Below are positions 17,907-37,555 of a stretch of DNA of 37,610 bases, piece by piece. Below the pieces are notes generated by a model that was given only the letters and a program-made list of their open reading frames with translations, did not search any database and was not told the DNA's origin. The translations under genes and the position numbers were made by a program. Every line of letters begins with the position of its first letter. Position 1 is the stretch's first letter. Origin of the DNA: Natrinema pallidum DSM 3751 (GTDB lineage Archaea; Halobacteriota; Halobacteria; Halobacteriales; Natrialbaceae); assembly GCF_000337615.1 (NCBI RefSeq), contig NZ_AOII01000004.1, positions 1 to 37,610 of the forward strand. Reading direction: 5' to 3'.

Positions 17907-18000
17907 ACGGGTTGCTGAGATGGGAATGGACCTGACCCTAGTACCGCGATTGAACGGTCCATGCAAATGCATTTCAAATACTGGTGACCAGAGTGACGGT

Positions 18001-19044
18001 ATGCAGCGCGCGTTCCGCGTTGGCGAGGCCTATCGGGACACGGGAAGCTTCAGGAGCTCGGAGGACCAGTTTCTGCGGTGGATCCGCGGTCCACTGAGTA
18101 GCGGAATCAAAAACACAGGTGGAATCCGCGACCTCGGTGCGAATCACTCGGAGATACCCGCGGCGCTAATCCTCGTCTCCAACGATGCGGGCGTCTCACA
18201 GCACGACGACCCGTGGGAGGACACGCTTGCGGTCAACGCTGGCTACGTGAGCTACTGGGGAGATGCGAAGAAGGATCTCCGGTATGACGAGTCGGCACAG
18301 AACCGGAAAATCAAGGATGCGTTCGACAGGATGGCCTCGGGACGACGTGAGGAGGTACCCCCCGTACTGGTGTTCCGGAAGCCTGAGAGCGGCGTCGTCG
18401 AGTTCTGTGGGCTTTGCGTCCCGGATCACTTTGAGGTGCGCACCTATCAGGACGATTCGGGAGAACAGATACCGAACTACCGCTTTCACTTCTCGATTCT
18501 CAACACACAAGCCGTTCCAGTCTCGTGGCTCCACAAGCGTGCGCAGACGAGCGACGACGACCAGGCGCCCGAAGTCTGGAAGCAGTGGGTCAGGGAAGGA
18601 GAGGTCGCCCAGTGGCCGACTGGCGAACTCCTCGATACGAAAGGAGAGGTTCGGCGCTACGAAACGACCAAGACGATGGTGAGTAAAGCGTTTCGGGAAG
18701 AGACGTTCAAACGGTACGGGCATGCCTGCGCGATGACCGGTATCCGTGAGGAGTCGCTACTGGACTTGGCGCACATACTGCCACAGAGCCAGCACCCCGA
18801 CCTCGCAGAGCATGCGGAGAACGTGCTCGTTCTGAACTCGCTCCATCACCGAGCGTTCGACGCCGCGCTGTTCACGGTCGACAGTGAGTATCGGATTCGG
18901 ACAAGTCCATCTTTCGAGCCTGCACATCCGTTTCTGCGGGAGACGATCACCGAGAAAGAGGGCAATCCGATTGCGTTCCCACCGGGCGTTCAGGTGCGGC
19001 CGGGATTCCTCGAGGAGCTGAATGCCGGCCTGTCGTGGTTGTAG
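18001..19044 (+). CDS. HNH endonuclease, ScoMcrA-like modification-dependent type
   Basis: From ATG 18001 (MQRAFRVGEAYRDTGSF) the protein has 347 residues. In-frame ATGs at 17920 and 17926 would add ~25 residues of less typical composition. Residues ~1-180 resemble the N-terminal recognition domains of ScoMcrA-type enzymes: an xRVGEAYR start, a block around AALILVSNDAGVS, a 'W-D-Y-G-D' stretch, then PPVLVFRKPESG. The C-terminal part carries the HNH nuclease: CAMTGIREESLLDLAHILP, then NVLVLNSLHHRAFDAALFTVD. ScoMcrA-like enzymes cut DNA bearing modifications such as 5-methylcytosine or phosphorothioate. The gene faces drmMI convergently and is divergent from the drmD operon. The nuclease call is firm; dependence on a modification is inferred. 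Confidence 0.8.
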   Translation: MQRAFRVGEAYRDTGSFRSSEDQFLRWIRGPLSSGIKNTGGIRDLGANHSEIPAALILVSNDAGVSQHDDPWEDTLAVNAGYVSYWGDAKKDLRYDESAQNRKIKDAFDRMASGRREEVPPVLVFRKPESGVVEFCGLCVPDHFEVRTYQDDSGEQIPNYRFHFSILNTQAVPVSWLHKRAQTSDDDQAPEVWKQWVREGEVAQWPTGELLDTKGEVRRYETTKTMVSKAFREETFKRYGHACAMTGIREESLLDLAHILPQSQHPDLAEHAENVLVLNSLHHRAFDAALFTVDSEYRIRTSPSFEPAHPFLRETITEKEGNPIAFPPGVQVRPGFLEELNAGLSWL

Positions 19045-19062: not shown

Positions 19063-22000
19063 TCAGTCGTCGGCGACCGCTTCTTCCACAATCTCGATCT
19101 CCTCGTCAGTTAGGTCGTAGAGATCGTAAACGATCTCGTCGATGAGCTGGTCAGTCTTCTCGATCTTCGCGTCCAGTTCATCCGCACGCTCGCGGTTCAC
19201 AACGTAGCGCCGGAGATCGTCCCCGATGTCGTCTGTATCGGGCAGCGTCATCGCCTTCAGTCGGTCCACCAAGGAGTTCGTCTTGGTGGCAGTCTCCCGA
19301 AATCCAGCGAATCCCCCGGCCTTGTCGACTGCAACGGGAACAAACGCTTCGACCAGCGTAGCCTCCTCGTCGCTCAGGTTGGTCACGCTGAAGACCGTCT
19401 CGTAGTCGGTTTCCCTATACCCCCATTGGTCAGTCTCGTACTCGTCTTCATTCTCAGGCTTGTAGCGTGCGGTCGCCTCGACGATAACAGTGTCACCTTC
19501 AAGTACGGTACGGACATCACCGACTCTGAGGTTTTCATAGTCCTCACTCGTAGCATCGAGATACTCGGGGCTGGAAGGCTGGAAAATACCGATGTCGGGG
19601 AGGTTTAGACCTTCTTCATAAGTGCCGAGGTAGTCAAGGAGTTCAAGATTGATGGAATTACGGTCGTCCAAATGGGATTTTTGTTCCTCTGCAACTCTCA
19701 CGAGCAGATCATGGACAATCTCCGTATCGTCGCTAGTATACTCGAAGATAGCTGATAGCATCTTCTCTCGGTCCATCTCCCCGTCTAGCAGAGATTGGTA
19801 CTCAGAGAATAATGATTCAACGGTGCTGTTCCGTTCAGTCTCGGGTAGGTCGAATTGCACATCCCGAATCGGGAGTTTTTCGAAGTGCGCTACCCGCAAT
19901 TTCGGGAATAGTTCGTCATTCTCGCTATACTTTTCTCGGAACCAGAACACAGAGGCCTTCGACCCGAGTAGTGCGAGTGCATACAGAAGATCTATTTCTT
20001 GATCCCCCTGTAGAGCGATGTAGATTCCACGGTCGACAACAAACTCCTCACTAATCACGTCTACTTGGAATCGCTCACCGAGGATTTCTCGGAGGAGTAG
20101 ACGCTTCCCCTCGAAGAATCTCTTCTCGCGGGGTTCCGCGAGCCAAGGACCATAGCTAATCCAAGTATCTCCCTCCCACTGTATGCTGTACCGAGAGAGA
20201 TGTTTTCCCTTCAGTTCTGGTACGTACGTATCGTCCTCTTTTTTGTCCGCGTGATAGGCTCTATCATCGATAATCTCTTGATCCTGTTGGCTGTGGTGGT
20301 ACGGTCCTACTCCTCGAACAGTCTCGTACAGGGAACCGAGATTTCGCGAGCGGCTCTCTATCTGGTTTAATATTGGAGCGACTGTACTATGGGTATAAAC
20401 TACATATCCGTCTTCCTCTCTCAAAAGAGAACTGGAAAATTCGTCGTTAATCTCGACTTGAGCATCGTCATCCATCTCGCCACGGAGGAAGGGATCTTCA
20501 AACCCGTCTGAGCGCTCACCGATATAGATGAGATGTTCTGCACCAACTTCTGGGAACGCAGATTGGGGGCTATGGATAATCTTTCGGGGCTGATTCTCTA
20601 TTAACAAGAATTCCCTAATTTTGGGAGTTCGATAGTTCGCCAGCCAAGGATCAGGTACAATGAATCCAATCGGTGATCCCTTTGAGAGCATATCCATCCC
20701 TCTTTCGAGGAATAAGGTGTAGAGATCAACCTGATACTCGGCAGTTTTGAACTGTTCGTTGTAGTAGTCCGCTTCTGCAGGCTTCCCTTTCATTCGTCCT
20801 ACATTCACCCAAGGCGGATTCCCGATCACTGCATCGAACCCGGCATCCGCTTTCCGCTCTCCATCTTGGTCGTAGAACGCCATCGGGAATTCCAGTTCCC
20901 AGTGGAAGAAGTGGTCGTCTTCGGCCATCGCCTGCGCACTCTTGAACCAGTCTTGTTGCTCTATTTTCTCCCACGCATCGCTGTGGAGCGCACGTGCCAT
21001 TCGCTCGTCGGCGTCACCGGGTACGTCGAGTCCGAACGCGTTGGCGGTGTGGACGTTGGCCATCGCGAGGAGTTTCTTGTAGAGCGGGTCGGCGCGAACG
21101 TCGTCGTACACTGCCTCCATCTCCTTTGCGTCTTCTAGCGTCTCGTTGTCGATGTTGAGCAGGTCTTGGAAGCGATCGGTGACGTGCTCCATTGCCCGCT
21201 GGCGCGTGTGGTCGAACGACTGCTGGAGTGTTAGCTGGCCGTCCCCTGTGGCGTCATCGTCGCCATTGGTCAGCACGTCCTCAATGTCACTCCCGACGAG
21301 CGAGTTCCCAGTCTTGAGGTGGTGGTCGAGGAACGCGAGCGGCTGCTCCGCAGCGAGCGTCCGCAGCCAGAGAGAGACCTTCGCCAGCTCGGTCGCGAGC
21401 GGATTGACGTCGACACCGTAAATACAACGTTGTGCGACCTTCCGGCGCGCCCAATTGATATCTCGGAGTTCGCCCTCCTCCGTGGTTGGCGGTCGAATCT
21501 CAGCATCCTCGGCGTCGATAGCTTGACGGTCCTGCTCCTCTTGGGCGTCGATGATCTCCCGCGCGAGGTAGTCTACCGCGTTGACTGGGAAGTGACCACT
21601 CCCCATTGCGGGGTCCAACACAGTGAGGGCGAAGATCCGTTCGGCAAACTCGTCGGCAAACCCTCCTTCCCGGCTGTGAGTCGTATCCGCGCTCTGGGAC
21701 ATGAGGTCCGAGCGTATTTCGTCGACCAGTGGCCCGAGCGTCTCGTCGACGATGTACTCGACGACGTACTCGGGGGTGTAGTACGACCCTGTGGCCTTGC
21801 GCTCCCCATCGTCAGTTCGAAGATACACCTCGCCCACCTCGACGGTGATATCGTCGTCGTCTCCGGCAGGGGTGTACTCACCATCGTCGACGGTCAACGG
21901 TTCGTCGGCCACGTCGAGTTTGTACTCTAGCAGCCCCTCATAGATCGATCCGAGATTCCGCTCGTCGAGCGACGAATAGTCGACGAATACCTTCCCCTCG

Positions 22001-23226
22001 CCGTCAGAGGCCTCGTGGCGAGTGAGTAATTCAATGACTTCCGCGAGATAAGCGTCGCCGGCCTTGTAGTTTGAGAGGAACTGTGACTCGACACTATCGT
22101 CGTTGTCTGGACTCGTTCGGAACAAACCACCATTGTACGCGGGGATGTAGAGATCCTTTTTCGGAATGCCCTGTCCTTGGCTACCCTCGTCGATCAGGAC
22201 GAAGAGCTCCTCGAGCCGGTCCCAGAGATTCGTTTGCCAGGTCTGATAGTGTTGCTGGGTCGCGTCACGGTTCTCGACGACCGTCTGTTTCAGTTCGTTC
22301 AGACTGTAGCTCCCGCTGTAGATCTCGTTATCCGTAGGGAGCAGGTTCCGTCCCTCGCTTTCGGCGTAGAGGACAAAGATGAGCCGGTAGAGGTAGATGA
22401 GTGAACTATCGTGGATCAGATCTAGGTCATCTTCATCGAGGTCATCATTCGTGTCGAGGAATCCCTCTGCGAGTACGCGAATCGCCTCGTAGATGTTCTC
22501 TTGGAGGTCCTCACCAAGTTCCTCAGCGAAGACGCTCGACTCGTCATACACGTCGTCGAGGAAGCAGTCGCCGGTCTGGTCAGGGAGGAACGCTTCCTGA
22601 CGGAAGAACAAGTAGAACTCCTTGAACGCTTCAAAGTCACCCTCGCTGTCGGCGACATCGAGGAGTTCTGGCAGATCGATCTCGTAGTAGGAGTCCAGTC
22701 GGTGACTCGTCGGCCCGTAGTAGAGCCGCCACTTCTTGCCGTTCGTGAGGACCGCCCACTGGGTTGGTGTTTCCTGGAGATAGCGGTGGATCTGATAACT
22801 CGGGTTCTCGAAGTCACGTTTCTCTTCCCCACGTGTGTCGAGCTTTCGGCCCCATCGCTTTGCGTCGGCGACGGCGATCGACTCCTCGTAGAAATTCTCA
22901 CGGTCGAACGCAGCGTCGACCGCTTCCTCGCTCGGGAAGAAACCGTAGTCGGGCCGTCGAGCGTTTCGCATGACTGTCTCCTCAATCTCGAACGGGATAC
23001 CGAGGATGTCGAAAATTGGCCGAATAAAGTTCTTCTCTAACTGTGCCTCATTGTAGTCGTCGACGCGCTCCTGTTTCTCGGCCCAGAGGTCGTTGATCTC
23101 CTCGAAAGCCATTTCCACATCGTCGTCTGGAACGTCGTTCCAAGGCTCTGTCTCTCGGAGATGGTCTTCGAGATAGTGGTTCGAAAACAGGTCGCGGTTT
23201 GTCCGGTATGTGCTGGAGTCCGTCAT
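19063..23226 (-). CDS. drmMI: DISARM N6-adenine methyltransferase DrmMI with nuclease domain
   Basis: This 1387-residue protein begins at ATG 23226. Residues ~60-170 form an HsdR_N-like PD-(D/E)XK domain: RPDYGFF (Asp93), VADAK (Asp121, Lys123), the Q-x3-Y motif QIHRY (Gln145), and WAVLTNGKKWRLYY (157-170). The gamma-type N6-adenine methyltransferase core has motif I LDPAMGSGHF (537-546) and the catalytic NPPW (803-806). A target-recognition and helical C-terminus follows. The layout is close to Type IIG/Eco57I-like enzymes, to which DrmMI is related. It should protect host adenines. Whether the nuclease part cuts is not known. It lies 161 bases after drmC with its own AT-rich upstream region, so a separate promoter is possible. 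Confidence 0.88.
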   Translation of the reverse strand: MTDSSTYRTNRDLFSNHYLEDHLRETEPWNDVPDDDVEMAFEEINDLWAEKQERVDDYNEAQLEKNFIRPIFDILGIPFEIEETVMRNARRPDYGFFPSEEAVDAAFDRENFYEESIAVADAKRWGRKLDTRGEEKRDFENPSYQIHRYLQETPTQWAVLTNGKKWRLYYGPTSHRLDSYYEIDLPELLDVADSEGDFEAFKEFYLFFRQEAFLPDQTGDCFLDDVYDESSVFAEELGEDLQENIYEAIRVLAEGFLDTNDDLDEDDLDLIHDSSLIYLYRLIFVLYAESEGRNLLPTDNEIYSGSYSLNELKQTVVENRDATQQHYQTWQTNLWDRLEELFVLIDEGSQGQGIPKKDLYIPAYNGGLFRTSPDNDDSVESQFLSNYKAGDAYLAEVIELLTRHEASDGEGKVFVDYSSLDERNLGSIYEGLLEYKLDVADEPLTVDDGEYTPAGDDDDITVEVGEVYLRTDDGERKATGSYYTPEYVVEYIVDETLGPLVDEIRSDLMSQSADTTHSREGGFADEFAERIFALTVLDPAMGSGHFPVNAVDYLAREIIDAQEEQDRQAIDAEDAEIRPPTTEEGELRDINWARRKVAQRCIYGVDVNPLATELAKVSLWLRTLAAEQPLAFLDHHLKTGNSLVGSDIEDVLTNGDDDATGDGQLTLQQSFDHTRQRAMEHVTDRFQDLLNIDNETLEDAKEMEAVYDDVRADPLYKKLLAMANVHTANAFGLDVPGDADERMARALHSDAWEKIEQQDWFKSAQAMAEDDHFFHWELEFPMAFYDQDGERKADAGFDAVIGNPPWVNVGRMKGKPAEADYYNEQFKTAEYQVDLYTLFLERGMDMLSKGSPIGFIVPDPWLANYRTPKIREFLLIENQPRKIIHSPQSAFPEVGAEHLIYIGERSDGFEDPFLRGEMDDDAQVEINDEFSSSLLREEDGYVVYTHSTVAPILNQIESRSRNLGSLYETVRGVGPYHHSQQDQEIIDDRAYHADKKEDDTYVPELKGKHLSRYSIQWEGDTWISYGPWLAEPREKRFFEGKRLLLREILGERFQVDVISEEFVVDRGIYIALQGDQEIDLLYALALLGSKASVFWFREKYSENDELFPKLRVAHFEKLPIRDVQFDLPETERNSTVESLFSEYQSLLDGEMDREKMLSAIFEYTSDDTEIVHDLLVRVAEEQKSHLDDRNSINLELLDYLGTYEEGLNLPDIGIFQPSSPEYLDATSEDYENLRVGDVRTVLEGDTVIVEATARYKPENEDEYETDQWGYRETDYETVFSVTNLSDEEATLVEAFVPVAVDKAGGFAGFRETATKTNSLVDRLKAMTLPDTDDIGDDLRRYVVNRERADELDAKIEKTDQLIDEIVYDLYDLTDEEIEIVEEAVADD

Positions 23227-23387: not shown

Positions 23388-24317
23388 TCAGATATCGACA
23401 CGGATCGCGCTCGCGGAGTCAAGAAGGCACGTACAGAGCTCTCGGAAGGGAGTGACCTTCGCACCCTCGAGAAGCACGCCAAGCTCGAGGTACCGATTGA
23501 ACCCATAATCGGTGACGTTAGCGCTCCCGATATACGCAGCTCGGGAGTCAAACAACATCACCTTCGCGTGGAGGGTAAACTGCGGGTTCTCCCCATCTTG
23601 TGTTCGCTCCTCCATCGGGGTGCTGTCATCCCAAACTGTGTAGTCGACGAGTGAGACGCGTGAAGCGACCCCCTGCTCCGCAACGCGGTCCATGAACGAC
23701 TGAATGACATGGTAATTGTGCGACTCTGTATCCGACAGATAGCGCGTGACGATCGTCAGGTCGACCCCCCGTTCGAGTGCATCAAGGAGCACGTCGGCCA
23801 GACGACCGAAGCCTTCCCCCTCGAAAAACGGGGAGAGTAGGATAATCTCGCTGTCACAGCGTTTGATCTGGCTGGCCAGCGTCGAGAGCAGTCCATCCAT
23901 CCCGAACGAGGCGGCAGTCGTGCCACTGAATGCGGGATCGTCAGGGAATGTTATCAGTGGCGTTACTGTTGTCGTCGGGACTCGCTCCTGATGGGCCGCC
24001 AGTATGCGAATTGACTCCTGGGCACGCTCGAGAACTTGGCGGGTTCGCGTGGCGTCGACGGTAAAGCGGGTTTCCACCAGATCGGTTTCGTAGGACTCTC
24101 GCTGGACAACATCACACTGCAGAAACTGGCGGAAGAGGTCGGTTGCAGCCTCCCGACTCAGTCTCGTATCGCGCGCGACAGCAGCAGGAGAAAGACGCTC
24201 GCCTCGGCCCGCAGCGACGAGGAGGAGGCCTTCCAGTTCATCCAGAAGTGTCTCATCGTGCTCCGCAATATCGGCGATCGCAAGCGTCCGATCAATGGCT
24301 AGATGTTGGCTGGACAT
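23388..24317 (-). CDS. drmC: DISARM phospholipase D-family protein DrmC
   Basis: This 309-residue protein has an N-terminal winged-helix-like region (residues ~20-80). A PLD domain follows, with a strand-turn near LLSPFFEGEGFGRLADVL and a single complete HKD motif, LHAKVMLFD followed by GSANVT. PLD-family nucleases with one HKD act as dimers. In the DISARM system of Bacillus, DrmC was reported as dispensable or weakly needed for protection. The start ATG 24317 is 24 bases beyond the drmB stop, so the gene is in the drmA-drmB-drmC transcription unit. Family and role are well supported. Confidence 0.88.
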   Translation of the reverse strand: MSSQHLAIDRTLAIADIAEHDETLLDELEGLLLVAAGRGERLSPAAVARDTRLSREAATDLFRQFLQCDVVQRESYETDLVETRFTVDATRTRQVLERAQESIRILAAHQERVPTTTVTPLITFPDDPAFSGTTAASFGMDGLLSTLASQIKRCDSEIILLSPFFEGEGFGRLADVLLDALERGVDLTIVTRYLSDTESHNYHVIQSFMDRVAEQGVASRVSLVDYTVWDDSTPMEERTQDGENPQFTLHAKVMLFDSRAAYIGSANVTDYGFNRYLELGVLLEGAKVTPFRELCTCLLDSASAIRVDI

Positions 24318-24341: not shown

Positions 24342-26303
24342 CTACAGTCGCCAGAAACCCTCGATAGATCGGTCCGTGTTGGGTCGGCTCCCGAACAGAT
24401 AGTCCCGACAGAGGACCTGGTTGAAGTACGAACAGCTGATCTCGCTCACGTGGAGACAGGACAGACAGGCTCCGTCACGCTGTGAACAGACCGGGTCCAT
24501 CATGCACTCATTCCCGTGGGCTTTCGCCTGGCCCAGGAGATCGTCCAGTTGCTGTTCGACCATGGTGGTCATCCCGCCGATGTTGAACTCCTCCCGGTTA
24601 TTGGTATAGATCACCAGTGACAGCGCGCGCGGGAAGAGGAACTCGCTCAGATTCGTCCGGTCGAACCCGCTGATGGTGCTCGCTTGCTTCAGTAGGATGT
24701 GTGAGAGCGTGTGCAGCATCTCGAAGACGTACTTTGTCACCTGGCCCTCAACGGTGTCATCAGTAGTGGTCTCGAACCGACCGTACTGGTCGACGGGGTC
24801 GAGATGATTCAGCAGGAACGCCCACTGCTCGGCCTCCGAGAGCTCTTCGATAGCTGCTCGTGCTCGATCGATGTCGGCCTGCTCCGGGTTCTCTGGGAGT
24901 GTGGGAAGCGTGATGCTCCCTCGAACTGCGTCTTCGTCACTGGTACCAGGGATGTTGACGGCCAGCCAGAGTAACACCGCGGCTGGGTCGAGGTCGAACT
25001 GTGTCGCCTCGGTTTCTGAGGTGTCGACGAAGATCGGGGTCCCGTCGCCGCTGCTTGCGTTCTGGGAGAAGGCGTTCAGCCGAGCTTCATCCTCCTCACG
25101 GCTACCACGCGTGTACCCGTAGACGAACGTCTGAACAGGGAAATCCTCAATAACGCGAACGTCCCTGAACCCGAGACGCTCGATGTTGTTGGTGTAGGTC
25201 GAGATCTTGTCGGCCTTCTGTGGGAACCCCTCATTGCGGGCGTCGGCCTCCAGCTCGTCGATTGTGTGGGCGGTGAGTTCCTCGAGACTGAGCACGTACT
25301 GGAGGAGTTCGTCACCGGCGTTAGTCATCTCCTCGGCATTCTCGCCTGCGTCCAGGTCGATCAAATCTGTGATGACTTCACCGACGGTCTGGCTGTCGAT
25401 TTCGCCATGCTCACGGAGCCACTCTTCAGCCTCGGCCAGCGATTCGACCTCGGATTCGTTCTGGTAGACCTCGATCTTCCGGTCGTCATCTATTTCGGCA
25501 CCCTCGATCCCCTCATTCATGTCGACGGCCTGCAGCGGAGAATCAGAGAGTCCGAGGTGCTTGGCGAGTGCCTTACGTGAGCCGTCCTCGCTTCCGCGGA
25601 GGTGCCCAATCCCCGAGGTGTGCAGGTTCACAGTCGTCAGGTAGTGTGGGTAGTACGTCGAGCCCGCACGATGGACGGTGGTGTACATCTTGTCCTCGTC
25701 CGGGTCGTCTTCGTACGCCGGTGGGACATAGTCGCAGCCGCAGTTCTGGTAGTAGCTTACCCGAGTGTCCCACCCACAGATGTTACAGCGCCATTTGAAG
25801 TTCTGCGCGCGCTGACTGTCCTGAGTGTCAAGGACGATGTGCTGATCGCCGTGCTCGGGGCACTTTTGGGGGTACAGCCGCCTGATTTCCCCGCAGCTGT
25901 GGACGCTGGCGAACTGGTACTGCTTCAGATCACCGTTGCAGCCCGATCGCTGGCACTTCAGCGCTTGGTTTTTTCCGTTGAGATCATCCGCAGAGTAATA
26001 CCCATGGGCCTTCTGACAGCTCGTGCAGTAGAACGTCGTCGGGAAGGGGCGGGCACGCACCTCTTCGGGGGCGGCAAAGTCATAGTGCGACGGGTTGTTC
26101 GAGGTGAATCCCTGTTCATCGCCGTCCCAGTTCTTCGCCCTGGCGAACACGCGGTCGACGATGTAGTCCCGGTCCACTTGGCCGCTTGCGTCAGTAGTTT
26201 CGAGGCGGTTCACCTGCCAGATGCCGCGCTTGTCGCTGTAGTCGAACGTGTTCCCGGGAAGGAACTGATACAGGATCTGATGGCGGCTACGTTCCATACT
26301 CAT
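24342..26303 (-). CDS. drmB: DISARM protein DrmB (DUF1998)
   Basis: This 653-residue protein begins MSMERSRHQILYQF, 6 bases after the drmA stop. Residues ~92-205 hold several Cys pairs (FYCTSCQKAHG, ALKCQRSGCNGD, FKWRCNICGWD), consistent with zinc binding. The C-terminal DUF1998 region ends in a Cys cluster (CMMDPVCSQRDGACLSCLHV, then SCSYFNQVLCRDYLFG). DUF1998 proteins pair with MrfA/DrmA-like helicases. In DISARM, DrmA and DrmB form a DNA-binding complex. Direct adjacency and order drmA-drmB-drmC match known DISARM loci. Confidence 0.92.
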   Translation of the reverse strand: MSMERSRHQILYQFLPGNTFDYSDKRGIWQVNRLETTDASGQVDRDYIVDRVFARAKNWDGDEQGFTSNNPSHYDFAAPEEVRARPFPTTFYCTSCQKAHGYYSADDLNGKNQALKCQRSGCNGDLKQYQFASVHSCGEIRRLYPQKCPEHGDQHIVLDTQDSQRAQNFKWRCNICGWDTRVSYYQNCGCDYVPPAYEDDPDEDKMYTTVHRAGSTYYPHYLTTVNLHTSGIGHLRGSEDGSRKALAKHLGLSDSPLQAVDMNEGIEGAEIDDDRKIEVYQNESEVESLAEAEEWLREHGEIDSQTVGEVITDLIDLDAGENAEEMTNAGDELLQYVLSLEELTAHTIDELEADARNEGFPQKADKISTYTNNIERLGFRDVRVIEDFPVQTFVYGYTRGSREEDEARLNAFSQNASSGDGTPIFVDTSETEATQFDLDPAAVLLWLAVNIPGTSDEDAVRGSITLPTLPENPEQADIDRARAAIEELSEAEQWAFLLNHLDPVDQYGRFETTTDDTVEGQVTKYVFEMLHTLSHILLKQASTISGFDRTNLSEFLFPRALSLVIYTNNREEFNIGGMTTMVEQQLDDLLGQAKAHGNECMMDPVCSQRDGACLSCLHVSEISCSYFNQVLCRDYLFGSRPNTDRSIEGFWRL

Positions 26304-26309
26304 CGTTGA

Positions 26310-29300
26310 TCACCGGTTGTCCATGGTCTCGAAGATTTCTCGGTAGCGGTACTCAGACCGGATTGGGAGTTGCTCGTCGACGTCCCGAAGGCTGCGCATC
26401 GGCGAGCGCTTGATGCGGCCGCTCGTCCACTGGTCATCGTCGAGGCGGAGCTGCGAGAGAGCCTCTTTGGTAAGATCCTCGATATCGCCCCGGAACTCCT
26501 CGTGGTCGTCAGGGTCACCGAACATCCCCAGCATCTGCTGGCGGAGTTCGCCCTCGTCGACGGAGTCAGCGAACCCCTCGGCGTTATCACCGAAGTAGAG
26601 GTTCCCGCTGCCGTCACGGTACATATAGTGGTTGAGCAGCAGCCCCATGAACAGACCCGGATGGGTCTGTTTGACGCTGTTTTTCGCCCAGCGGTTGATC
26701 GGGACGGGCTCGACCAGCCGATCGAGGAAGGCGTGGTACTTCTCGAAGAAGTGGTAGTGACTCAGGTCACGCTCCCGGATGGGGTGTGCAACGTTAAACA
26801 CGAGGCCAGGGCGCGACCGACCTGCACGGGAACTTGCCTGGATGTATTCAGCAGTCCCGCGAGGCATCCCGAAGAACGTCATCATATTGAACCGGTCAAC
26901 GTCAACCCCATGGGCGATCATGTTCGTCGCCGTAATCGTATTGAGTCGACTCGCCAGCAGCCAGGCGAGTGCCTCGCGCGTATTTTCACTCGCACGGGCG
27001 CGCTCGACGTCGAACTGATCGCTGTCAATGACCTCGTTCTCCTCGTCGAGGCTAGCCTCGAGCGTGCTCCGAAGCGAGAGGACGGAGTCTGTCACGTCCT
27101 CCTCGACCACCCCTCGATCAATCAGGTGGTTGAGGATCTGTTCGTCGGCTTCCTCGTCCCAGGGGTTCTCCACGACGTCCAAGACCTCCATGATGGTCTC
27201 GAACCCGGTCCCACCGGTCATCCGCTCGGAGGCCAGCGGCGGTCGGCCGTCTTCTTGGAGATAGGTGTCGAGCTGGGAGACGATGGACTGATCCAGTCGG
27301 TCTCCGTCTTTCTTCGAAAGCAGATAGGTGATGCTGGTGCTGTAGTAGCTGAGCAGGGCCAGCACCTCGTCGATCGAGTCGGCCTCGAGCGGCGCTGTTG
27401 TGTCCGTCCCCTCGAGTGCAGCACCTGTCAGCACCTGAGTCGGGTCGTTCAGTGACCTGCGGAACAGGTTCTGTATCTCCCGGTGGTAGTAGAACAGGAG
27501 ATCGATGATGGAGTTGATGTGGGTTTTCCCGTGGGGTACCAGTCCGATGTAGTAGCGTTGGGTCTCTGCGCGCTCCTGTGCGTAGAAGTTCTCGCGCAGG
27601 TACGGGCCCGGAGAGGGGAAGCGCTCGGCTGGCCGCATGAACAGGTTATGCACCTGATCTTCGAATCCGGTGATGGTCGCTGTCGGCGCAATCACCTTCG
27701 TCTTCCCGGCCTCGACGAGCTCCTGTAGCTCAGCAACCCCGGTCTCGTAATGGCCGTCGAAGCTCCCCATGCTCTCTTCCAGCAAGTGGAGTTCGTCGGG
27801 GACCATTAGCGACGGCGCAGGGTCGTAGGGTTCGACCGGACGCGCCATGTCGGAGAAATCGTCCTGGTCGATCGGACAGCCGTACTTCTCGGTGCACTCA
27901 CCGAGGCTTGCGAACCCATGAATGGGGCACTCGAGCGTCATTTCGCCCGTAATGAGGTGAGCGAACTTCCGCTGATACCCGATGGCCGTGATCTTGTCGA
28001 TCGTACCTGCGAGAATGGTCGGCGCGTACCGGTAGAGCTCGTTGTCGACGACGTGGACCGGGAGTTCCTCCTCGGCGTACGTCTCACTGGTGTCTAGTGA
28101 GCGCGACTGCCACGGGCAGTCGAAGCTGCTCCCCGTACAACAGTGAGTCAGCCGATGGTCGTCCTCGGTGACCTGGACCTCAACATCCGCGCCGCAGGCC
28201 GGACAGCTGGGAACGACTTTCGCCTCACGCCGGAGACTCTCTCCAGATGGGCCCTGATACCGCTGATGGTTGTTGTTGTCGTACCCGGTGAGAGCGTTCG
28301 GCGTGTTCGCCTTGCCGACGAGATAGCCCATCGAGAACGGGCGGGAGGGGTAAGAGCCGATATCTGACTGTTCGCGGCGAACAAGGTCGGCGTACATCAC
28401 CGTCTCCGTCATCCGCTGGAACTGCTGGAGCGAGAGAAGCCGGAGCGGGAACTTCGTCCATGTGGTCACGCCGAAGTTCTTCCCACGGAGCCGGTCGAAA
28501 AACATACTCCAGACGGCGACCCCGAGGAACGCTTCGGTTTTCCCACCGCCCGTCGGGAACCAGAGCACGTCAACGACATCGAGGGGCGAATCGGCGTCCT
28601 CCGCGCGGTCCTCGGTCGACCCATCGCGCCAGTCGACCTCCGCCCACTCCTCGTACTCACGGCTAGCAACGTCGGGCACCTCCATGACGATGAACACCAA
28701 CTGGAAGAGGCGCCAGCCGGGGAACTCGTGCATCCGGTCCATCGCCTCATTCATCAGTTCGAACGCGCGGCCGACTGTTTCAGGGTGCTGACGGAGGCAC
28801 TCGATCCCTCGTTCGAAGCGCTCGATCTCGCGCTCGAACGCGTCACGGTCATCGTTGAAGTCGGCGAGATCGCCCGTCTCGGGGTCGTCGTCCCAGTCTT
28901 CACGCTCACGATACTGTTCGAGAGCGGCGTCGTACTCATCGCGGAGGTACTGCCGCATCTCGGCGGCGATTTCGTTGAGGGTATCCAGGCCGCCGTTTTC
29001 TAGGTCAGCGAGCACCTCGAACGCCGTGTTGGCGTCGCGATCTGCGGATTCGTAGACGAGCTGGCGGTACTCCGGGATGAACTGCGTCTCCAGGCGATTC
29101 GCCGTCGGTGCTGCATCAGGTGCGCGGCGGCCAGGCGGGATGCCGTCCTCGTCCACCTTCTGGTCGTCGCGTTCAGGGGCAGTAACTGTGCAGTTACGCC
29201 CGTGGCCCCAGAGGTCGCGGTTGTACCGGAAGTCCTCGGGGAGTGGGTCGAAGGTGAAGGGGACGAACTCGAGATCGCCTCTCGTCTCCAGTTTGAGCCC

Positions 29301-30125
29301 TACCTCGAACAGGGTCGGGTCCCGGATGGTGTAGATAGCGTCGTCGCGCGACTGGACTGCCTCGTTCGCAATTTCGAAGTCGACGATGGTACTGTCATCA
29401 CCGTTCTCCTCGTCAGCCATTACCTCGACGGTCAGGCTAGCGTGCCAGTCGGGGAGAGCAGGAGACCCCTCAGCAGCGCGTTCAGCGAGGTAGCCACGGA
29501 AGCTTACCTCGTCTTCTAGCGCGGCCGGCGGGACGGTGTCGTCATCGTCTGTCTCAGCGTAGAGGTCGTAGTTCTCCCGAGCATACTCACGGGCGTCAGC
29601 AAATGCCGTCTGGAACGCTTCCCGAGCACGCTCTTGGATGACATCCGGAGTAGTCCGCCTTGGCGTTTGGAGCACGGCTGACGGGATCTTGATCGGGGGC
29701 ACATCGAGCTCGATCCGTTCGAAAACCGGGAGCAAGCTGTCGCCCTCGTCGTCTTCGTCGCGGTCCCCCAGTGCGACGAAGGAGTCCCGGTTCACCATCT
29801 CGTCGTACGTGGGGTTAACGCGAACCCACACGCTCGCGTTGACCGAAAGGGTCAGCTCGTCGCCTTCGGTGCCGCCTCGTACGCGAACGGTGGCGCCGAG
29901 GCCGGTCGGCTGCATCTTCGACTGCAGGTCGTCGTCCGGATCGTCTAGCTGATCCTCGCTTTCAGGCGCCAGCGCGCCCGCGAAGAATCGATCGCTGGGG
30001 AAGTCCCGCTGGACACGCTCGTCGATGTCGCCACGAGCCTGTTTCAGCACCGTCTCGCGGAGGTGCCGGGCGATGCGTTCGTCATCAGCCGGGGGTTCAG
30101 TCCCGGCACTGCTTCCTATAGACAT
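26310..30125 (-). CDS. drmA: DISARM helicase DrmA
   Basis: I start at ATG 30125 (MSIGSSAGTEPPADDE), 5 bases after the upstream stop; a longer frame reads back into that gene but is a shadow. The 1271-residue protein has ~500 N-terminal residues unique to the family. It then has Walker A PTGGGKTEAF (residues 524-533), the DELH box (LMVPDELHLLEE), a zinc-like insert (CPACGADVEV, THCCTGSSFDC), TATITG (motif III), and a second domain with GVDVDRFNMM and QASSRAGRS (motif VI). This is the DrmA/MrfA-type SF2 helicase fold. DrmA binds unmethylated DNA ends and, with DrmB, carries out the core DISARM action. Confidence 0.93.
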   Translation of the reverse strand: MSIGSSAGTEPPADDERIARHLRETVLKQARGDIDERVQRDFPSDRFFAGALAPESEDQLDDPDDDLQSKMQPTGLGATVRVRGGTEGDELTLSVNASVWVRVNPTYDEMVNRDSFVALGDRDEDDEGDSLLPVFERIELDVPPIKIPSAVLQTPRRTTPDVIQERAREAFQTAFADAREYARENYDLYAETDDDDTVPPAALEDEVSFRGYLAERAAEGSPALPDWHASLTVEVMADEENGDDSTIVDFEIANEAVQSRDDAIYTIRDPTLFEVGLKLETRGDLEFVPFTFDPLPEDFRYNRDLWGHGRNCTVTAPERDDQKVDEDGIPPGRRAPDAAPTANRLETQFIPEYRQLVYESADRDANTAFEVLADLENGGLDTLNEIAAEMRQYLRDEYDAALEQYREREDWDDDPETGDLADFNDDRDAFEREIERFERGIECLRQHPETVGRAFELMNEAMDRMHEFPGWRLFQLVFIVMEVPDVASREYEEWAEVDWRDGSTEDRAEDADSPLDVVDVLWFPTGGGKTEAFLGVAVWSMFFDRLRGKNFGVTTWTKFPLRLLSLQQFQRMTETVMYADLVRREQSDIGSYPSRPFSMGYLVGKANTPNALTGYDNNNHQRYQGPSGESLRREAKVVPSCPACGADVEVQVTEDDHRLTHCCTGSSFDCPWQSRSLDTSETYAEEELPVHVVDNELYRYAPTILAGTIDKITAIGYQRKFAHLITGEMTLECPIHGFASLGECTEKYGCPIDQDDFSDMARPVEPYDPAPSLMVPDELHLLEESMGSFDGHYETGVAELQELVEAGKTKVIAPTATITGFEDQVHNLFMRPAERFPSPGPYLRENFYAQERAETQRYYIGLVPHGKTHINSIIDLLFYYHREIQNLFRRSLNDPTQVLTGAALEGTDTTAPLEADSIDEVLALLSYYSTSITYLLSKKDGDRLDQSIVSQLDTYLQEDGRPPLASERMTGGTGFETIMEVLDVVENPWDEEADEQILNHLIDRGVVEEDVTDSVLSLRSTLEASLDEENEVIDSDQFDVERARASENTREALAWLLASRLNTITATNMIAHGVDVDRFNMMTFFGMPRGTAEYIQASSRAGRSRPGLVFNVAHPIRERDLSHYHFFEKYHAFLDRLVEPVPINRWAKNSVKQTHPGLFMGLLLNHYMYRDGSGNLYFGDNAEGFADSVDEGELRQQMLGMFGDPDDHEEFRGDIEDLTKEALSQLRLDDDQWTSGRIKRSPMRSLRDVDEQLPIRSEYRYREIFETMDNR

Positions 30126-30130
30126 ACTGA

Positions 30131-31786
30131 TCACTCTGTAATCCGGTCGAGCTGGTCGTCTGAGATGATGGTAGGCATGATTGTGGGAGCGAGGGCGTTG
30201 ATGCTCCGGGATACAACCTCGGCTGTTATAAGGTCCGTGTCCTTGAGACTCGTGCCGTACTCGCCGACGTAGTCGCGGTACATGGTGATGGTGTAGAACA
30301 CCATCGCGAGTTCGTAGTGCTGCTCGACGAACTCTTTCCACGTGTCCTTGACGTTGCGCTCGACGATGAACGACCGGAGTGCGGCAGCGTCCATGTTGAT
30401 CGTGAGTGAGAGGCCACTGATGGTGCCATCCTGACTTGGGTCGAGGTGTATCAGCGTGTGTTCGTCGAAGTTCCTCGCATCGTCTGCGTTGAACTCCTCT
30501 GGGTTAATTGGCTCACCATCGTCGTTGGTTCGCCAGTTCTTTTCGTGAACGTACGCGATGTCGGGCATCTCGAAGCCCCAGTCGTCGGTGACACCGTCGT
30601 TGCCTGCCGTCCCTTCGCGGTCGCTCGCGCTGGCGCCGTCGTCACCGGACGTGTCGGTGGTGTCTCCCTCGCCGTCGCCGTCGCCGTCGCTCTCGCTCTC
30701 GGAAGGGGAGTGCGAATTGTCTGTCGCCTCGACGTACTCGAGTTGGCAGCGTGCGGTGAGTGAGGCAGTATCGACGTTCACGCCGCCGTCGGTGGCGACG
30801 TCGGCCTCCACACGTTCCGGATAGGCGTCCGCCGGGTCGTCGACCGATGAGCAGTCGCGCGGGTCCGGCCGGGTCAGCTCGACCGACAGGGCTGTCTCCT
30901 TTCCAGGATCGGCGTCTTCGGGCGGGTCCACGGTCAGCGTGAGCAGACCGTCCTGAAGCTCGATCGCGCGGAGCTGCTCGGGACACGAAACCTCGAGCGT
31001 GCCCGAGAGGACGTCCCGGGCGAGGTAGTCGTTCTGAGCGTCCGTGGCGAACCGGACTGTCGCCGATCCGTTGACGGGGGTCTCAACGGGCATGGGCTCG
31101 TCGGCCTCCCAGAGGACGTGCTCCTCGCTCCCGGGGTTATACTCCTCGATGGGGACGAGGAAGGTCGGGAGCTTCGGCGCGTGCGGCGCGTCGCCTCCGT
31201 TTTCGTCACCACCCGAGGTGTCAGTGTGGTCGGAAAGGTTGTCGTCGGCGGACTCAGGCGCGGACTCGTTCCCACCGTCACTCGGACGGATGCGGGGTGC
31301 GCGGATCCGTTCGCCGGTGGCCATGAAGTTCCCGACCTCCGGGTTCCGCTCGATGAACTCGGCGAACGTATCGGTGTCGGTCGCCGGTTCGGCGTTTCCA
31401 CGCTGGGCCCGTCGGCGTTCCTCTTCATCGGTGAGCAGGTCACTTCCTTCGAGGGCGTCTTCGAGGGCGTTGAGGAACTTGTTGGCCTGCGGAGAGTCCT
31501 TCAGCGTATCCCGCGACGGGCTGAACATGTTCACCATTCCGAGGTTCGCGAGATCGTCGAACTCGGCGATAACGACGGTGTCTGAGGCGACCTTCGAGTA
31601 CCCCAGCGACTTCAGGAAGTACTCACCCTTGCTCCCGTGGGTCTGGCCGTTGATGGTGAGCATCACGGCGTGGTCCTTCTGGACCCCTGTACGTCCAGTA
31701 GCGTCTTTGTGCGTCGAAGTACCGGACACGAACTTACTCTTCTCGTCGGCGGCGTCACCGAGGTCGTCGTCTTTGAACAGCAGCAC
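30131..31786 (-). CDS. C-terminal part of split GHKL ATPase gene
   Basis: The GTG at 31786 gives 551 residues, but coding character continues upstream in this frame to about 31909 (for example GFLQELEDGNEHLLEGREHL). The part therefore joins the preceding frame at a homopolymer. Residues ~40-90 (AVMLTINGQTHGSKGEYFLK, then VVIAEFDDLANLGMVNMFSP) resemble the transducer region that follows a GHKL ATPase domain. After an acidic linker comes an Ig-like beta domain (SGTLEVSCPEQLRAIEL). A second acidic linker and a helical C-terminus end 5 bases before drmA. If expressed alone it would lack the ATP site. Its role in DISARM is inferred from operon position only. Confidence 0.7.
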   Translation of the reverse strand: MLLFKDDDLGDAADEKSKFVSGTSTHKDATGRTGVQKDHAVMLTINGQTHGSKGEYFLKSLGYSKVASDTVVIAEFDDLANLGMVNMFSPSRDTLKDSPQANKFLNALEDALEGSDLLTDEEERRRAQRGNAEPATDTDTFAEFIERNPEVGNFMATGERIRAPRIRPSDGGNESAPESADDNLSDHTDTSGGDENGGDAPHAPKLPTFLVPIEEYNPGSEEHVLWEADEPMPVETPVNGSATVRFATDAQNDYLARDVLSGTLEVSCPEQLRAIELQDGLLTLTVDPPEDADPGKETALSVELTRPDPRDCSSVDDPADAYPERVEADVATDGGVNVDTASLTARCQLEYVEATDNSHSPSESESDGDGDGEGDTTDTSGDDGASASDREGTAGNDGVTDDWGFEMPDIAYVHEKNWRTNDDGEPINPEEFNADDARNFDEHTLIHLDPSQDGTISGLSLTINMDAAALRSFIVERNVKDTWKEFVEQHYELAMVFYTITMYRDYVGEYGTSLKDTDLITAEVVSRSINALAPTIMPTIISDDQLDRITE

Positions 31787-33094: not shown

Positions 33095-33517
33095 ACGTGC
33101 GTGCAGCATCGGGGTGAAGTCACAACCATGAGGAAAACGGATACTACCACAACTGGGGTGCGCGTGCGTACAGCGAAGAACGCGTCGAGAAGTGTGAGGT
33201 TGAACAATCTGGATGGGGCTTCATCGGTTGGAACAAGCGAACCGAGGAATCGGTAAACGATAGCATCTTGCTCATCAACGTGCCCCCATGGCTCTTCGGG
33301 AGTGACCAAGGTCCGTCCGAGGGCATCAGGGGCTCGGTCATCGGGTTCGAGGTTATATACTGGCCCCTTCAGTTATCTGGTCAAAATAGGCGGAAAACCT
33401 GTTCGTAAAGACAATCACTCCCACAAAGGTAGTGGCTGAACGGTCGTGGGAGGTGTCTGGAATAAGCAGTATCTGATTATCCTGGAGTTTATCCCTGGTG
33501 ACGAAATAACACTTGGT

Positions 33518-35758
33518 ATGACTGAATCGGTCACGTGCTGCGATTCGCCGATGGCGCTAGTGCGATCAGCGCCACCCACGGAGCGTGACGCCCATCGACA
33601 GTTACTCTTCGACAATATCGAATTCCTCATTGACACGCTGACGGCAGCCCATATGCGCAAACAGCGAATGATCCCGGTCGGCTGTCCCGGGTCGACGCCG
33701 GAGCGCTTGGCGCGGCAGCGCGGTAAAAATGGTGACGACTGCCGATACGCGATGCTGGACTCTGCTCACGGTGAAACGGCCGACACGCTCTGCCCCTGCA
33801 ATGACCCACTCTGCGGGAGCGATGATCCGCTGGATGCCGTAGCTGCGGTGGTCCTAGGACCTCCCGTCACTGCTCCAGCGGAACGCTTCTTCCAGCGACA
33901 ATCCAGACGAACCGTCAGGGAACTCCGGGAGCAACACGGAGACTGGGAAACACTCGCTTCAATGGACCACGATGAGCTGTCAGAGGTTCTCCAAGAAGCC
34001 TGCTCACTGAAGGGAATAAGCAAGGATCGGGTTTCTCGCCTCGAACAGCTTCTCGTGGCCGTTCAAGAGACCGACTATACGGACGGGGTGACGCTCCGCG
34101 ACTTCTCGAGGGTGCAGTACCAGAACTATGTAGACTTCCTCGCGAGTGTCCCCGGAATTGAACAAGATGACGGGTGGTGGCTCCTACAGACGGCCTTCGA
34201 TAAGCCTGTCTGGCCGGCTGACCCGTGCGTTGATGAGTTTCTGTGTGCACTCGGGTTACTCGATCCAGAGGAGCTGCATACGGCGGAGAGTCGTCGCCAC
34301 GCGCTCGAAGAGGAGTTGACCGACCGTTTGATCGCTCCGCTCTATCGGGCACTTGCCACACACGCAGTCACTGCAGGAACAGATGTTTGTGGCGAAGACT
34401 GCGAAATCCGGAAGTTCATGCTCACACACCGCCTGCGACAGCAACAGATAGAGCGGAATGGGCCAACCGCTGTCGACCTCTTCGCGGGGGCCGGTGGCCT
34501 TTCGTGTGGATTACGGCAGGCGGATTACGATATCAGGTGGGCGATCGATATTGATACGGACGCCGTGGCGACGTATCGCCTGAACCATCCCGAAATCCCA
34601 CACCGAAACGTCGTCTGTGGGGATGTCCGCGAGGTGGATCTCACGACGCGTATCCAAGAGGCTGTAAACGAGCCCGACCTGCTGGTCGGTGGCCCACCGT
34701 GTCAGTCGCTCTCCAATGCAGGGTACCGGTCGCGTCGAGGAGACGACGAGGACTACAGCATTCTCGATGACGACCGGACGACCCTCTACACGCAGTACGT
34801 GAAAGCTGTCGAGGAACTCCGGCCAAAGGCCATCGTGATGGAGAACGTCGAGGGGATGGTCAACGAGGTAGGAGATACTGACATTCGGGTCATTGACTGG
34901 GTGATAGAGGACCTCGAAATGCTTAGTGAAACAGGCCCGGGGTATGATGTCGAGTACAAGCTACAGGACATGACTGAACTCGGCATCCCACAAAAACGAG
35001 AACGGGTGCTTCTGATTGGGATCCGCGACGACCTCACAGAGAGTGCAACAGCAGATGATATGCTGAATGAACTCTCGATAGAAGGCAAAACACAGAGTAT
35101 CCAGCAGGGACTCTCCGGACTCCCCCGTCTTCGGCGAGGGGAGGGTGGAAGACTACTCCCGAGGACGGGACGTGGCTTTAGGAGCGACTACGTGCGTACT
35201 CATGATCTCGATTCTGGAACCAGCCTCTGTTTCAACCATCAGGCTCGAGATCACCCGATGGAGAAAGATCAGATTCTATTTGATAAGGCTCTGAGTCCTG
35301 GCGATACCGGATGGGACGTGAAGTATAATTCTGACGGAGAATATGCAGAATATGTCGAATATGACGTCGGGACTGCCGAAAATAAGCGGTTCGGAGATAA
35401 GTACCGTATGCTTGAATGGTCAGAGCCCTCCCCGACAATCGTGGCTCATCTAGCTAAAGATGCGAATAGCTACGTGCTGCCAGATTACTACAAGCATGCA
35501 CGTCCAAGCCCCGACCGCGCGGATCCAAAGCGAAATCGTGGTATTACCCCTCGCGAGGCGGCACGGTTACAGTCCTTCCCGGATGACTACATCTTCTTGG
35601 GACCCTTTACGAGCTGGTTCAAACAGATCGGGAACGCGGTACCACCGATTGCAGGGAAACGCATTGGTGAAGTGCTCGACTCTCTCGTTGAAGCTGGAGA
35701 GTTCCCTGCAGCCAGTACAGATGCATCAAACTCTGGTAAAGCGGTTTCTGACGACTGA
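33518..35758 (+). CDS. HhH-GPD domain fused to C5-cytosine DNA methyltransferase
   Basis: I start at ATG 33518 (MTESVTCCDSPMAL); a GTG at 33446 would add 24 residues. The protein has 746 residues. Residues ~110-320 read like endonuclease III. There is a helical start (DDPLDAVAAVVLGPPVTAP), a helix ahead of the hairpin (EACSLKGISKDRVSRLEQLL), the helix-hairpin-helix (DFLASVPGIEQDDGWWLLQTAF), and the Asp-containing turn (PVWPADPCVDEFLCALG). The catalytic Lys of Nth (PGVGRK) is replaced by Asp, and the FeS cysteines are lost, so a bifunctional lyase is unlikely. From residue ~320 all C5-methyltransferase motifs are present: DLFAGAGGLS, GGPPCQSLS, ENVEGM, QKRERVLL, TPREAARLQSF, IGNAVPP. It is divergent from the GHKL-drmABC unit. 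Confidence 0.82.
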   Translation: MTESVTCCDSPMALVRSAPPTERDAHRQLLFDNIEFLIDTLTAAHMRKQRMIPVGCPGSTPERLARQRGKNGDDCRYAMLDSAHGETADTLCPCNDPLCGSDDPLDAVAAVVLGPPVTAPAERFFQRQSRRTVRELREQHGDWETLASMDHDELSEVLQEACSLKGISKDRVSRLEQLLVAVQETDYTDGVTLRDFSRVQYQNYVDFLASVPGIEQDDGWWLLQTAFDKPVWPADPCVDEFLCALGLLDPEELHTAESRRHALEEELTDRLIAPLYRALATHAVTAGTDVCGEDCEIRKFMLTHRLRQQQIERNGPTAVDLFAGAGGLSCGLRQADYDIRWAIDIDTDAVATYRLNHPEIPHRNVVCGDVREVDLTTRIQEAVNEPDLLVGGPPCQSLSNAGYRSRRGDDEDYSILDDDRTTLYTQYVKAVEELRPKAIVMENVEGMVNEVGDTDIRVIDWVIEDLEMLSETGPGYDVEYKLQDMTELGIPQKRERVLLIGIRDDLTESATADDMLNELSIEGKTQSIQQGLSGLPRLRRGEGGRLLPRTGRGFRSDYVRTHDLDSGTSLCFNHQARDHPMEKDQILFDKALSPGDTGWDVKYNSDGEYAEYVEYDVGTAENKRFGDKYRMLEWSEPSPTIVAHLAKDANSYVLPDYYKHARPSPDRADPKRNRGITPREAARLQSFPDDYIFLGPFTSWFKQIGNAVPPIAGKRIGEVLDSLVEAGEFPAASTDASNSGKAVSDD

Positions 35759-37111: not shown

Positions 37112-37555
37112 ATGGACAGCACTGACTCCGGCCAAGATATTCCACTGCCATTCGGTCGCACATCAACCACAGTTGATGAACTCCATACACTGATTAAGAT
37201 CGATAAAGCGGCAGCACTGCTTGAAGAGAACGGAGTCACCTCCGCTGAAAAGAGAATTGAGGAATTTCTTGAAGCTGTCCCATCTCTTCTGGCATGGCTC
37301 AGGAACGAGGGCCGAAACTTCCCCTGGCGAAATACAACCGATCCCTGGCGGGTGTACGTTTCTGAAATACTTCTTCAGCGAACACGAGCAGACGCAGTCA
37401 GCGAAGTCTACGATGATTTTTTCGATCGATTCCCTGAACCAGCAGCTATCCGTAAAGCTTCGGAGGAAGAGATCAGAGATTCCGTCTCGTCGCTCGGATT
37501 TGTAAATCACCGAACGCGTCATCCGTCTTTAGTTAGGCGCAAAACCGCACGATAG
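37112..37555 (+). CDS. Mig-type G/T mismatch DNA glycosylase, interrupted N-terminal part
   Basis: From ATG 37112 the frame has 147 residues. Residues ~60-135 match the start of the MutY/Nth superfamily and most closely the thymine-DNA glycosylase Mig of Methanothermobacter. The line includes NEGRNFPWRNTTDPWRVYVS, EILLQRTRADAVSEVYDDFF, and EEEIRDSVSSLGFVNHRTR. In the family this is followed by 'xxLkelA' and the helix-hairpin-helix with the catalytic site. Here homology stops after HRTR (about 37518) and an unrelated tail leads to TAG. A shift of frame does not restore the family, so an insertion or rearrangement lies at about 37518, with its body beyond the window. Mig enzymes remove T from G/T pairs arising by 5-methylcytosine deamination. 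The fragment itself should be inactive. Confidence 0.68.
   Translation: MDSTDSGQDIPLPFGRTSTTVDELHTLIKIDKAAALLEENGVTSAEKRIEEFLEAVPSLLAWLRNEGRNFPWRNTTDPWRVYVSEILLQRTRADAVSEVYDDFFDRFPEPAAIRKASEEEIRDSVSSLGFVNHRTRHPSLVRRKTAR

Follow-up and report, generated by a model that had tools for sequence, protein, structure and literature searches.

The window analysed here, a stretch of 37,610 nucleotides of Natrinema pallidum DSM 3751 (contig NZ_AOII01000004.1), encodes a protein in which an N-terminal domain with the HhH-GPD fold, resembling endonuclease III (Nth), is fused to a C5-cytosine DNA methyltransferase. The same window holds a cluster of genes resembling DISARM (defence island system associated with restriction-modification) and the 5' part of a gene for a separate mismatch glycosylase of the Mig type (Table 1). 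The reading frame of the fusion is taken from the ATG at 33518, which is also the start in the closest homologues, while an alternative in-frame GTG lies at 33446. An initial annotation of this DNA had proposed a cytosine methyltransferase fused to an endonuclease III-fold domain, and this composition is borne out by the Pfam match of the C-terminal half and by the structural matches of the N-terminal domain.

Table 1. Features of the fusion protein and of the surrounding locus in the window.
Feature	Position	Strand	Basis and remarks
Fusion open reading frame (Nth-like HhH-GPD domain + C5-cytosine DNA methyltransferase)	33518..35758	+	746 aa
HhH-GPD fold, residues ~20-301	33575..34420	+	AlphaFold model, Foldseek and Z-score vs 8a5f, hhalign vs haloarchaeal Nth
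Cysteine segment C56..C75..C92-x-C94	33683..33799	+	C56, C75, C94 invariant; C92 in 19/20
Degenerate hairpin VPGIEQDDGWW	34148..34180	+	position 217 in place of catalytic Lys; W220 W221 invariant
KPVWPADPCVD	34202..34234	+	D235 at catalytic Asp position; K229, P230, W232, P233 invariant
C5-methyltransferase domain	34463..35755	+	PF00145 E 1.5e-59; residues ~316-746
5' part of Mig-type HhH-GPD mismatch glycosylase gene	37112..37555	+	transposase insertion; 3' part beyond window, L050:1987-2355
drmA-like helicase	26310..30341	-	PADLOC DrmA E 2.9e-155; NF038325 E 1.1e-119, below curated cut-off
drmB-like (MZB/DUF1998-type)	24342..26303	-	PADLOC DrmB E 7.9e-53
drmC-like phospholipase D (PLD) nuclease	23388..24317	-	PF13091 E 7.4e-14; PADLOC DrmC E 1.8e-14
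drmMI-like adenine methyltransferase	19063..23226	-	PADLOC DrmMI E 7.1e-96; Eco57I + TaqI_C
AspBHI-N (SRA-like reader) + HNH nuclease, between drmD and drmMI	17920..19044	+	PF18062 E 2.1e-38, PF13391; PDB AspBHI, LpnPI, MspJI
drmD-like SNF2 helicase	14370..17312	-	NF038317 E 3.8e-127, below curated cut-off
Second, unfused C5-cytosine methyltransferase, 458 aa	12946..14322	-	PF00145 E 1.1e-59

The methyltransferase half contains all catalytic motifs (DLFAGAGG, GGPPCQ, ENVEG, QKRER, REAARLQSFP and GNAVPP), and across 20 homologues the C5-methyltransferase motifs I, IV (PCQ), VI (ENV), VIII (QxRxR), IX and X are nearly all invariant. Its structural model best matches M.HhaI, M.HaeIII and DNMT1 in the PDB (Z-scores of 20-24); a fold search with the whole protein returned matches to this half only and none to the N-terminal domain. 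Judged by its sequence this half is a complete C5-cytosine methyltransferase and would be expected to methylate DNA. After a variable linker the protein ends in a conserved acidic tail (35747-35755), which is Asp-Asp in all 20 homologues and usually Ser/Thr-Asp-Asp.

The roughly 311 residues ahead of the methyltransferase domain, here called the N-domain, give no Pfam match in the window protein (residues 1-311) and a weak NCBIfam match to a monofunctional DNA glycosylase (E = 0.0038). The top 50 PDB matches of the AlphaFold model (mean predicted local distance difference test score 79.8) are HhH-GPD proteins without exception, led by Deinococcus endonuclease III (8a5f; Foldseek E = 4.1e-5; Z = 14.8 over 215 aligned residues). 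By these matches the predicted structure has the arrangement of Nth, with a six-helix barrel and a domain on the HhH/iron-sulphur (Fe-S) side. The fold had been expected at residues 110-320; it is present in the model with a wider extent, from about 20 to 301. A profile of the 20 N-domain sequences finds Deinococcus Endo III in the PDB (E = 1.9e-5), aligning PGI.. with PGV.. and WPAD with FPVD, the same register that the initial annotation had put forward. Using hhalign, the N-domain matches the haloarchaeal Nth set with a probability of 97.8% (E = 1.2e-12, 187 columns), as opposed to a weak match to Mig (E = 0.027); on these values a fused copy of the Mig-type neighbour was rejected as its source. 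Chance similarity to HhH-GPD proteins was likewise rejected, given 20 fused orthologues under purifying selection. Descent from an Nth-like (endonuclease III) HhH-GPD protein is the best explanation of the N-domain. With endonuclease III (Deinococcus EndoIII-1 and haloarchaeal Nth) it has the fold and domain order in common, but it lacks the Lys, the Fe-S motif and the wedge Gln, carries a cysteine-bearing insertion after the N-terminal helices and is joined to a methyltransferase.

The active site of the N-domain is degenerate. Residue 217 (nt 34166-34168) corresponds to Lys120, the position of the catalytic Lys in Nth and of a Tyr in Mig; it is Asp in this copy, and the 20 homologues show ten residue types with Lys in none (conservation rank 309 of 318), so that the loss of the Lys noticed earlier holds throughout the family. 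The equivalent of the catalytic Asp138, residue 235 (nt 34220-34222), is Asp in this copy and in 17/20 homologues overall; its retention, as first described, does not extend to three intact homologues (L043, L046 and L048), which carry Gly, Ser or Asn. The wedge-Gln position is unconstrained (rank 282 of 318), and of the DNA-backbone motif the second hairpin Gly survives in only three of the 20 N-domains. The Fe-S motif C-X6-C-X2-C-X5-C occurs in none of the 20, which agrees with the reported lack of Fe-S cysteines in so far as that motif is concerned; cysteines are nevertheless conserved outside it (C56, C75, C92, C94 and C291/C295). The N-domain is thus without the catalytic Lys and the four-Cys motif of an active Nth enzyme. 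It does not fit the Mig/MutY type either (Tyr/Ser at the Lys position, barrel Glu, Asp, Fe-S), with position 217 unconstrained and the Fe-S motif missing, whereas the Mig-type neighbours and the haloarchaeal Nth set retain the features that have degenerated here.

The N-domain has at the same time acquired invariants of its own. Altogether 31 residues are invariant, new ones among them: W220 W221, K229 P230, W232 P233, R270, R277, C56, C75 and C94. The cysteine segment is a possible zinc site. The ratio of nonsynonymous to synonymous substitution rates (dN/dS) is about 0.09-0.23 in pairs with usable dS, indicating purifying selection. Together these features form a pattern that looks non-catalytic and suggests, without proving it, that the fold has been retained for a purpose outside its ancestral chemistry. 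The loss of catalytic residues might be expected of a passive evolutionary leftover, now without a role, from a repair-methylation fusion that was once active, but fusion in 20/20 genomes, the low dN/dS and the newly invariant residues make this very improbable.

The invariant aromatic and proline residues W220, W221, W232 and P233 replace the catalytic neighbourhood, which would suit a reader that steers or holds back methylation, its former lesion pocket sensing 5-methylcytosine (5mC), hemimethylated DNA, an abasic site or a flipped base. Two C5 methyltransferases and an SRA-like HNH nuclease in the locus also fit such a function, and the plant 5mC glycosylase ROS1 bound to 5mC DNA (7yhp) is among the fold matches (Z = 13.1). 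ROS1/DME enzymes likewise tie an Nth-related fold to 5mC biology; in contrast to the N-domain, which sits on a 5mC writer and does not have this set intact, they remove 5mC with Lys, Asp and Fe-S. As the ROS1 match reflects no more than the shared fold and the second hairpin Gly is lost, we regard a reader as unlikely, if the least so among the alternatives considered here.

The initial annotation had suggested a search for the same fusion elsewhere, and it is found in 20 of 391 haloarchaeal genomes, with N-domain orthologues that are 38-90% identical. Orthologues of the N-domain and of the methyltransferase clade (E <= 1e-60) are confined to one and the same set of 20 genomes and are fused in all of them. 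A scan of 84,980 prokaryotic species, which relies on short conserved peptides and which divergent relatives can escape, yields nine loci, all in Halobacteria (including Natrinema gari, Halorubrum ezzemoulense, Halorhabdus salina and Salinarchaeum laminariae). Three plasmid records carry the fusion, annotated merely as cytosine methyltransferase, and phage records gave no match to the N-domain. A phylum-wide search with the N-domain profile returned just the known fusions and weak matches to standalone haloarchaeal Nth-type proteins.

In the window drmA, drmB and drmC stand together with PADLOC matches in order, accompanied by the class 1 genes drmD and drmMI, with NCBIfam scores below the curated cut-offs. 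We assign the locus to a class-1-like DISARM, an assignment that describes gene content and not protection against viruses. Strong DrmA matches are present in 52 of the haloarchaeal genomes, among them 19 of the 20 with the fusion (Fisher p = 1.5e-17), and in most loci the distance from drmA/B/C to the fusion is no more than 10 kb. They flank the fusion in two layouts, a class-1-like one with drmD and drmMI and a class-2-like one with a weak drmE match. In one genome of the second kind (G352) the weak drmE-family match lies ahead of drmA/B/C and the fusion is the sole C5 methyltransferase found nearby; two others (G113 and G257) share its divergent type of drmA/B/C and a similar layout. In such loci the fusion fills the position of drmMII. 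The notion that it is a passenger in a random defence island was rejected on account of DrmA in 19/20 and of the two DISARM layouts.

DrmMII, the C5 methyltransferase of DISARM, is one of the closest known counterparts. Like DrmMII the fusion is encoded with drmA/B/C and, in G352 and by similar layout in G113 and G257, is the only C5 methyltransferase seen near the drmE-like/drmA/B/C set; PADLOC DrmMII models match its methyltransferase half with E about 1e-60. The resemblance is limited in that these models (422-491 positions) leave the N-domain uncovered and are outscored by generic type II methyltransferase models, and in that the fusion of class-1-like loci is an extra methyltransferase beside drmMI and a second C5 methyltransferase. 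The recurrence of DrmA and of two different layouts would also suit an N-domain that serves as a protein-protein interface, docking the methyltransferase on DrmA/DrmB or on accessory proteins, as would the conserved cysteine segment and the S/T-D-D tail. Since 33 of the 52 strong-DrmA genomes do without the fusion, docking on DISARM components seems an unlikely function.

At least 14 of the 20 fusion genomes have a homologue of the second C5 methyltransferase next to drmD or to the fusion itself, and the two enzymes might serve the two strands of one asymmetric site. In some loci relatives of the second enzyme form an apparent operon with the fusion; in other genomes they are paired divergently with a Mig-type gene, and most of the stretches examined there show no DISARM genes.

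A Mig-type gene is present in 11 of the 20 fusion genomes, nine times intact and twice broken, the copy of the window genome being one of the broken ones; in a related strain (L122) the Mig-type copy is also disrupted. Eight loci carry the intact gene beside the fusion in divergent orientation, and in the ninth genome it lies about 15 kb away (p = 6.7e-11 for the association of fusion and Mig). In nine fusion-free genomes the same gene is divergent to an unfused C5 methyltransferase. It encodes an HhH-GPD protein of about 260 residues with GPYT/SARA, VD(A/T/S)N and four Fe-S cysteines. The best PDB match is Mig.MthI (1kea, E = 2.5e-47), with MutY behind, and the eight aligned intact neighbours keep the Glu, the Tyr, the Asp and all four Cys of Mig.MthI. 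Repair of T:G mismatches arising from deaminated 5mC is probably the job of this separate enzyme. Mig.MthI and its partner methyltransferase resemble our system in bringing an HhH-GPD fold together with a C5-cytosine methyltransferase, as do the eight fusion loci with a Mig-type neighbour; Mig.MthI itself, however, is a separate and catalytically complete protein, while the fused domain is Nth-like and without the Tyr, the Fe-S cysteines and the wedge Gln.

These neighbours bear on the possibility that the N-domain is an active monofunctional glycosylase, repairing T:G mismatches in cis at the sites of its own methyltransferase. Mig and MutY function without the Lys, and Mig-like genes pair with C5 methyltransferases, as separate genes. 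The Asp is kept in most homologues, and HhH-GPD proteins can lack even this residue: a crenarchaeal member with Ser in its place is still active as a glycosylase by means of a different acid (PMC11754123). Many of these loci encode a separate, complete enzyme for T:G mismatches at 5mC sites, which lowers the likelihood of another glycosylase within the methyltransferase. The Lys/Tyr position is moreover unconstrained, the Asp is gone in three intact homologues, neither the wedge Gln nor the second hairpin Gly is kept, no Fe-S motif is present, and the affinity of the N-domain is to Nth rather than to Mig. We thus consider an active glycosylase unlikely. Base flipping or sensing, G/T repair and guidance of the methyltransferase had been proposed at the outset as functions; repair by a monofunctional G/T glycosylase is the least supported of the three, and guiding or helping the methyltransferase appears the most plausible.

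We propose that the fusion acts as a DISARM-associated C5-cytosine methyltransferase that would mark host DNA as self. Its N-domain, of Nth-like origin, would have lost glycosylase chemistry and may be kept as a non-catalytic module engaging DNA or a partner for the methyltransferase, while T:G mismatches from deaminated 5mC would be left to the separate Mig-type glycosylase encoded beside the fusion in many genomes. In Serratia DISARM, DNA methylation reduces the ATPase activity of DrmAB (PMC9142583), which makes a self-marking role of the fusion methyltransferase a reasonable proposal by analogy. What is supported directly is that the two domains are fused in a fixed pairing, that the N-domain has the HhH-GPD fold with a degenerate active site and is under purifying selection, and that the gene stands in a DISARM context; we put the probability that the N-domain helps the methyltransferase to engage DNA or a partner, without base excision, at about 0.6. 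The reader and docking functions overlap with this proposal. S. pombe Mag2 (4b21; Z about 11), which is reported to sculpt DNA at abasic sites, offers a functional analogy only: it too is a divergent HhH-GPD protein, and the titles of its solved structures name DNA binding and not excision, but it belongs to the AlkA/Mag lineage and has no methyltransferase fusion.

Several observations weigh against the proposed non-catalytic role in DISARM. Retention of Asp235 in 17/20 exceeds what drift alone would suggest and, since the Ser-bearing crenarchaeal protein is active (PMC11754123), the sequence leaves room for catalysis. The argument from the Mig-type neighbour is void in genomes where that gene is absent or broken. 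Structural agreement is moderate (TM-scores by query of 0.43-0.47 for the best matches, root mean square deviation 4-7 Å), which is in keeping with a divergent member that carries an extra cysteine segment. Finally, one genome (G090) has the fusion, the second C5 methyltransferase and two accessory genes of the DISARM locus, but no detectable DrmA. As a more specific form of the non-catalytic role, the N-domain could read repair intermediates or the methylation state and couple Mig-type repair of deaminated 5mC to re-methylation, so that DISARM spares its own genome after repair; this idea we hold to be quite unlikely.

DISARM, its C5 methyltransferase and the pairing of Mig with C5 methyltransferases are already known. 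Literature searches, which covered open-access and not subscription papers, returned no fusion of HhH-GPD and C5-methyltransferase domains, whether in DISARM or in general. A glycosylase fold on a 5mC writer brings the two opposite sides of 5mC biology together in one protein. Its near-restriction to DISARM-bearing haloarchaeal genomes suggests that a bare methyltransferase may not always suffice for self-marking in DISARM, and the recurrent Mig-type neighbour suggests that a dedicated repair enzyme pays the cost, deamination, of 5mC as a self mark.

The AspBHI-N/HNH gene is conserved near drmD/drmMI in related loci (L106, L107, L124, L125, L126, L128, L133 and L139). It is puzzling that a modification-dependent nuclease should be encoded next to two C5 methyltransferases; perhaps the nuclease cuts 5mC only in a context that the host does not make. 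The two accessory genes of the window (30131-31786 and 31860-32879, both on the minus strand), one without known identity and one with a weak GHKL-ATPase match, stay together in several fusion loci, as also in the DrmA-less genome. Downstream of the broken Mig gene lies a second drmD-like SNF2 helicase (L050:2447-5533), about 50% identical to the drmD of the window, and several related loci (L047, L124) have two or three drmD copies. An IS66-family transposase (10607-12064, minus strand) adjoins the DISARM genes and shares about 91% identity with an IS66 copy annotated on the Natronobeatus plasmid NZ_CP101457.1.
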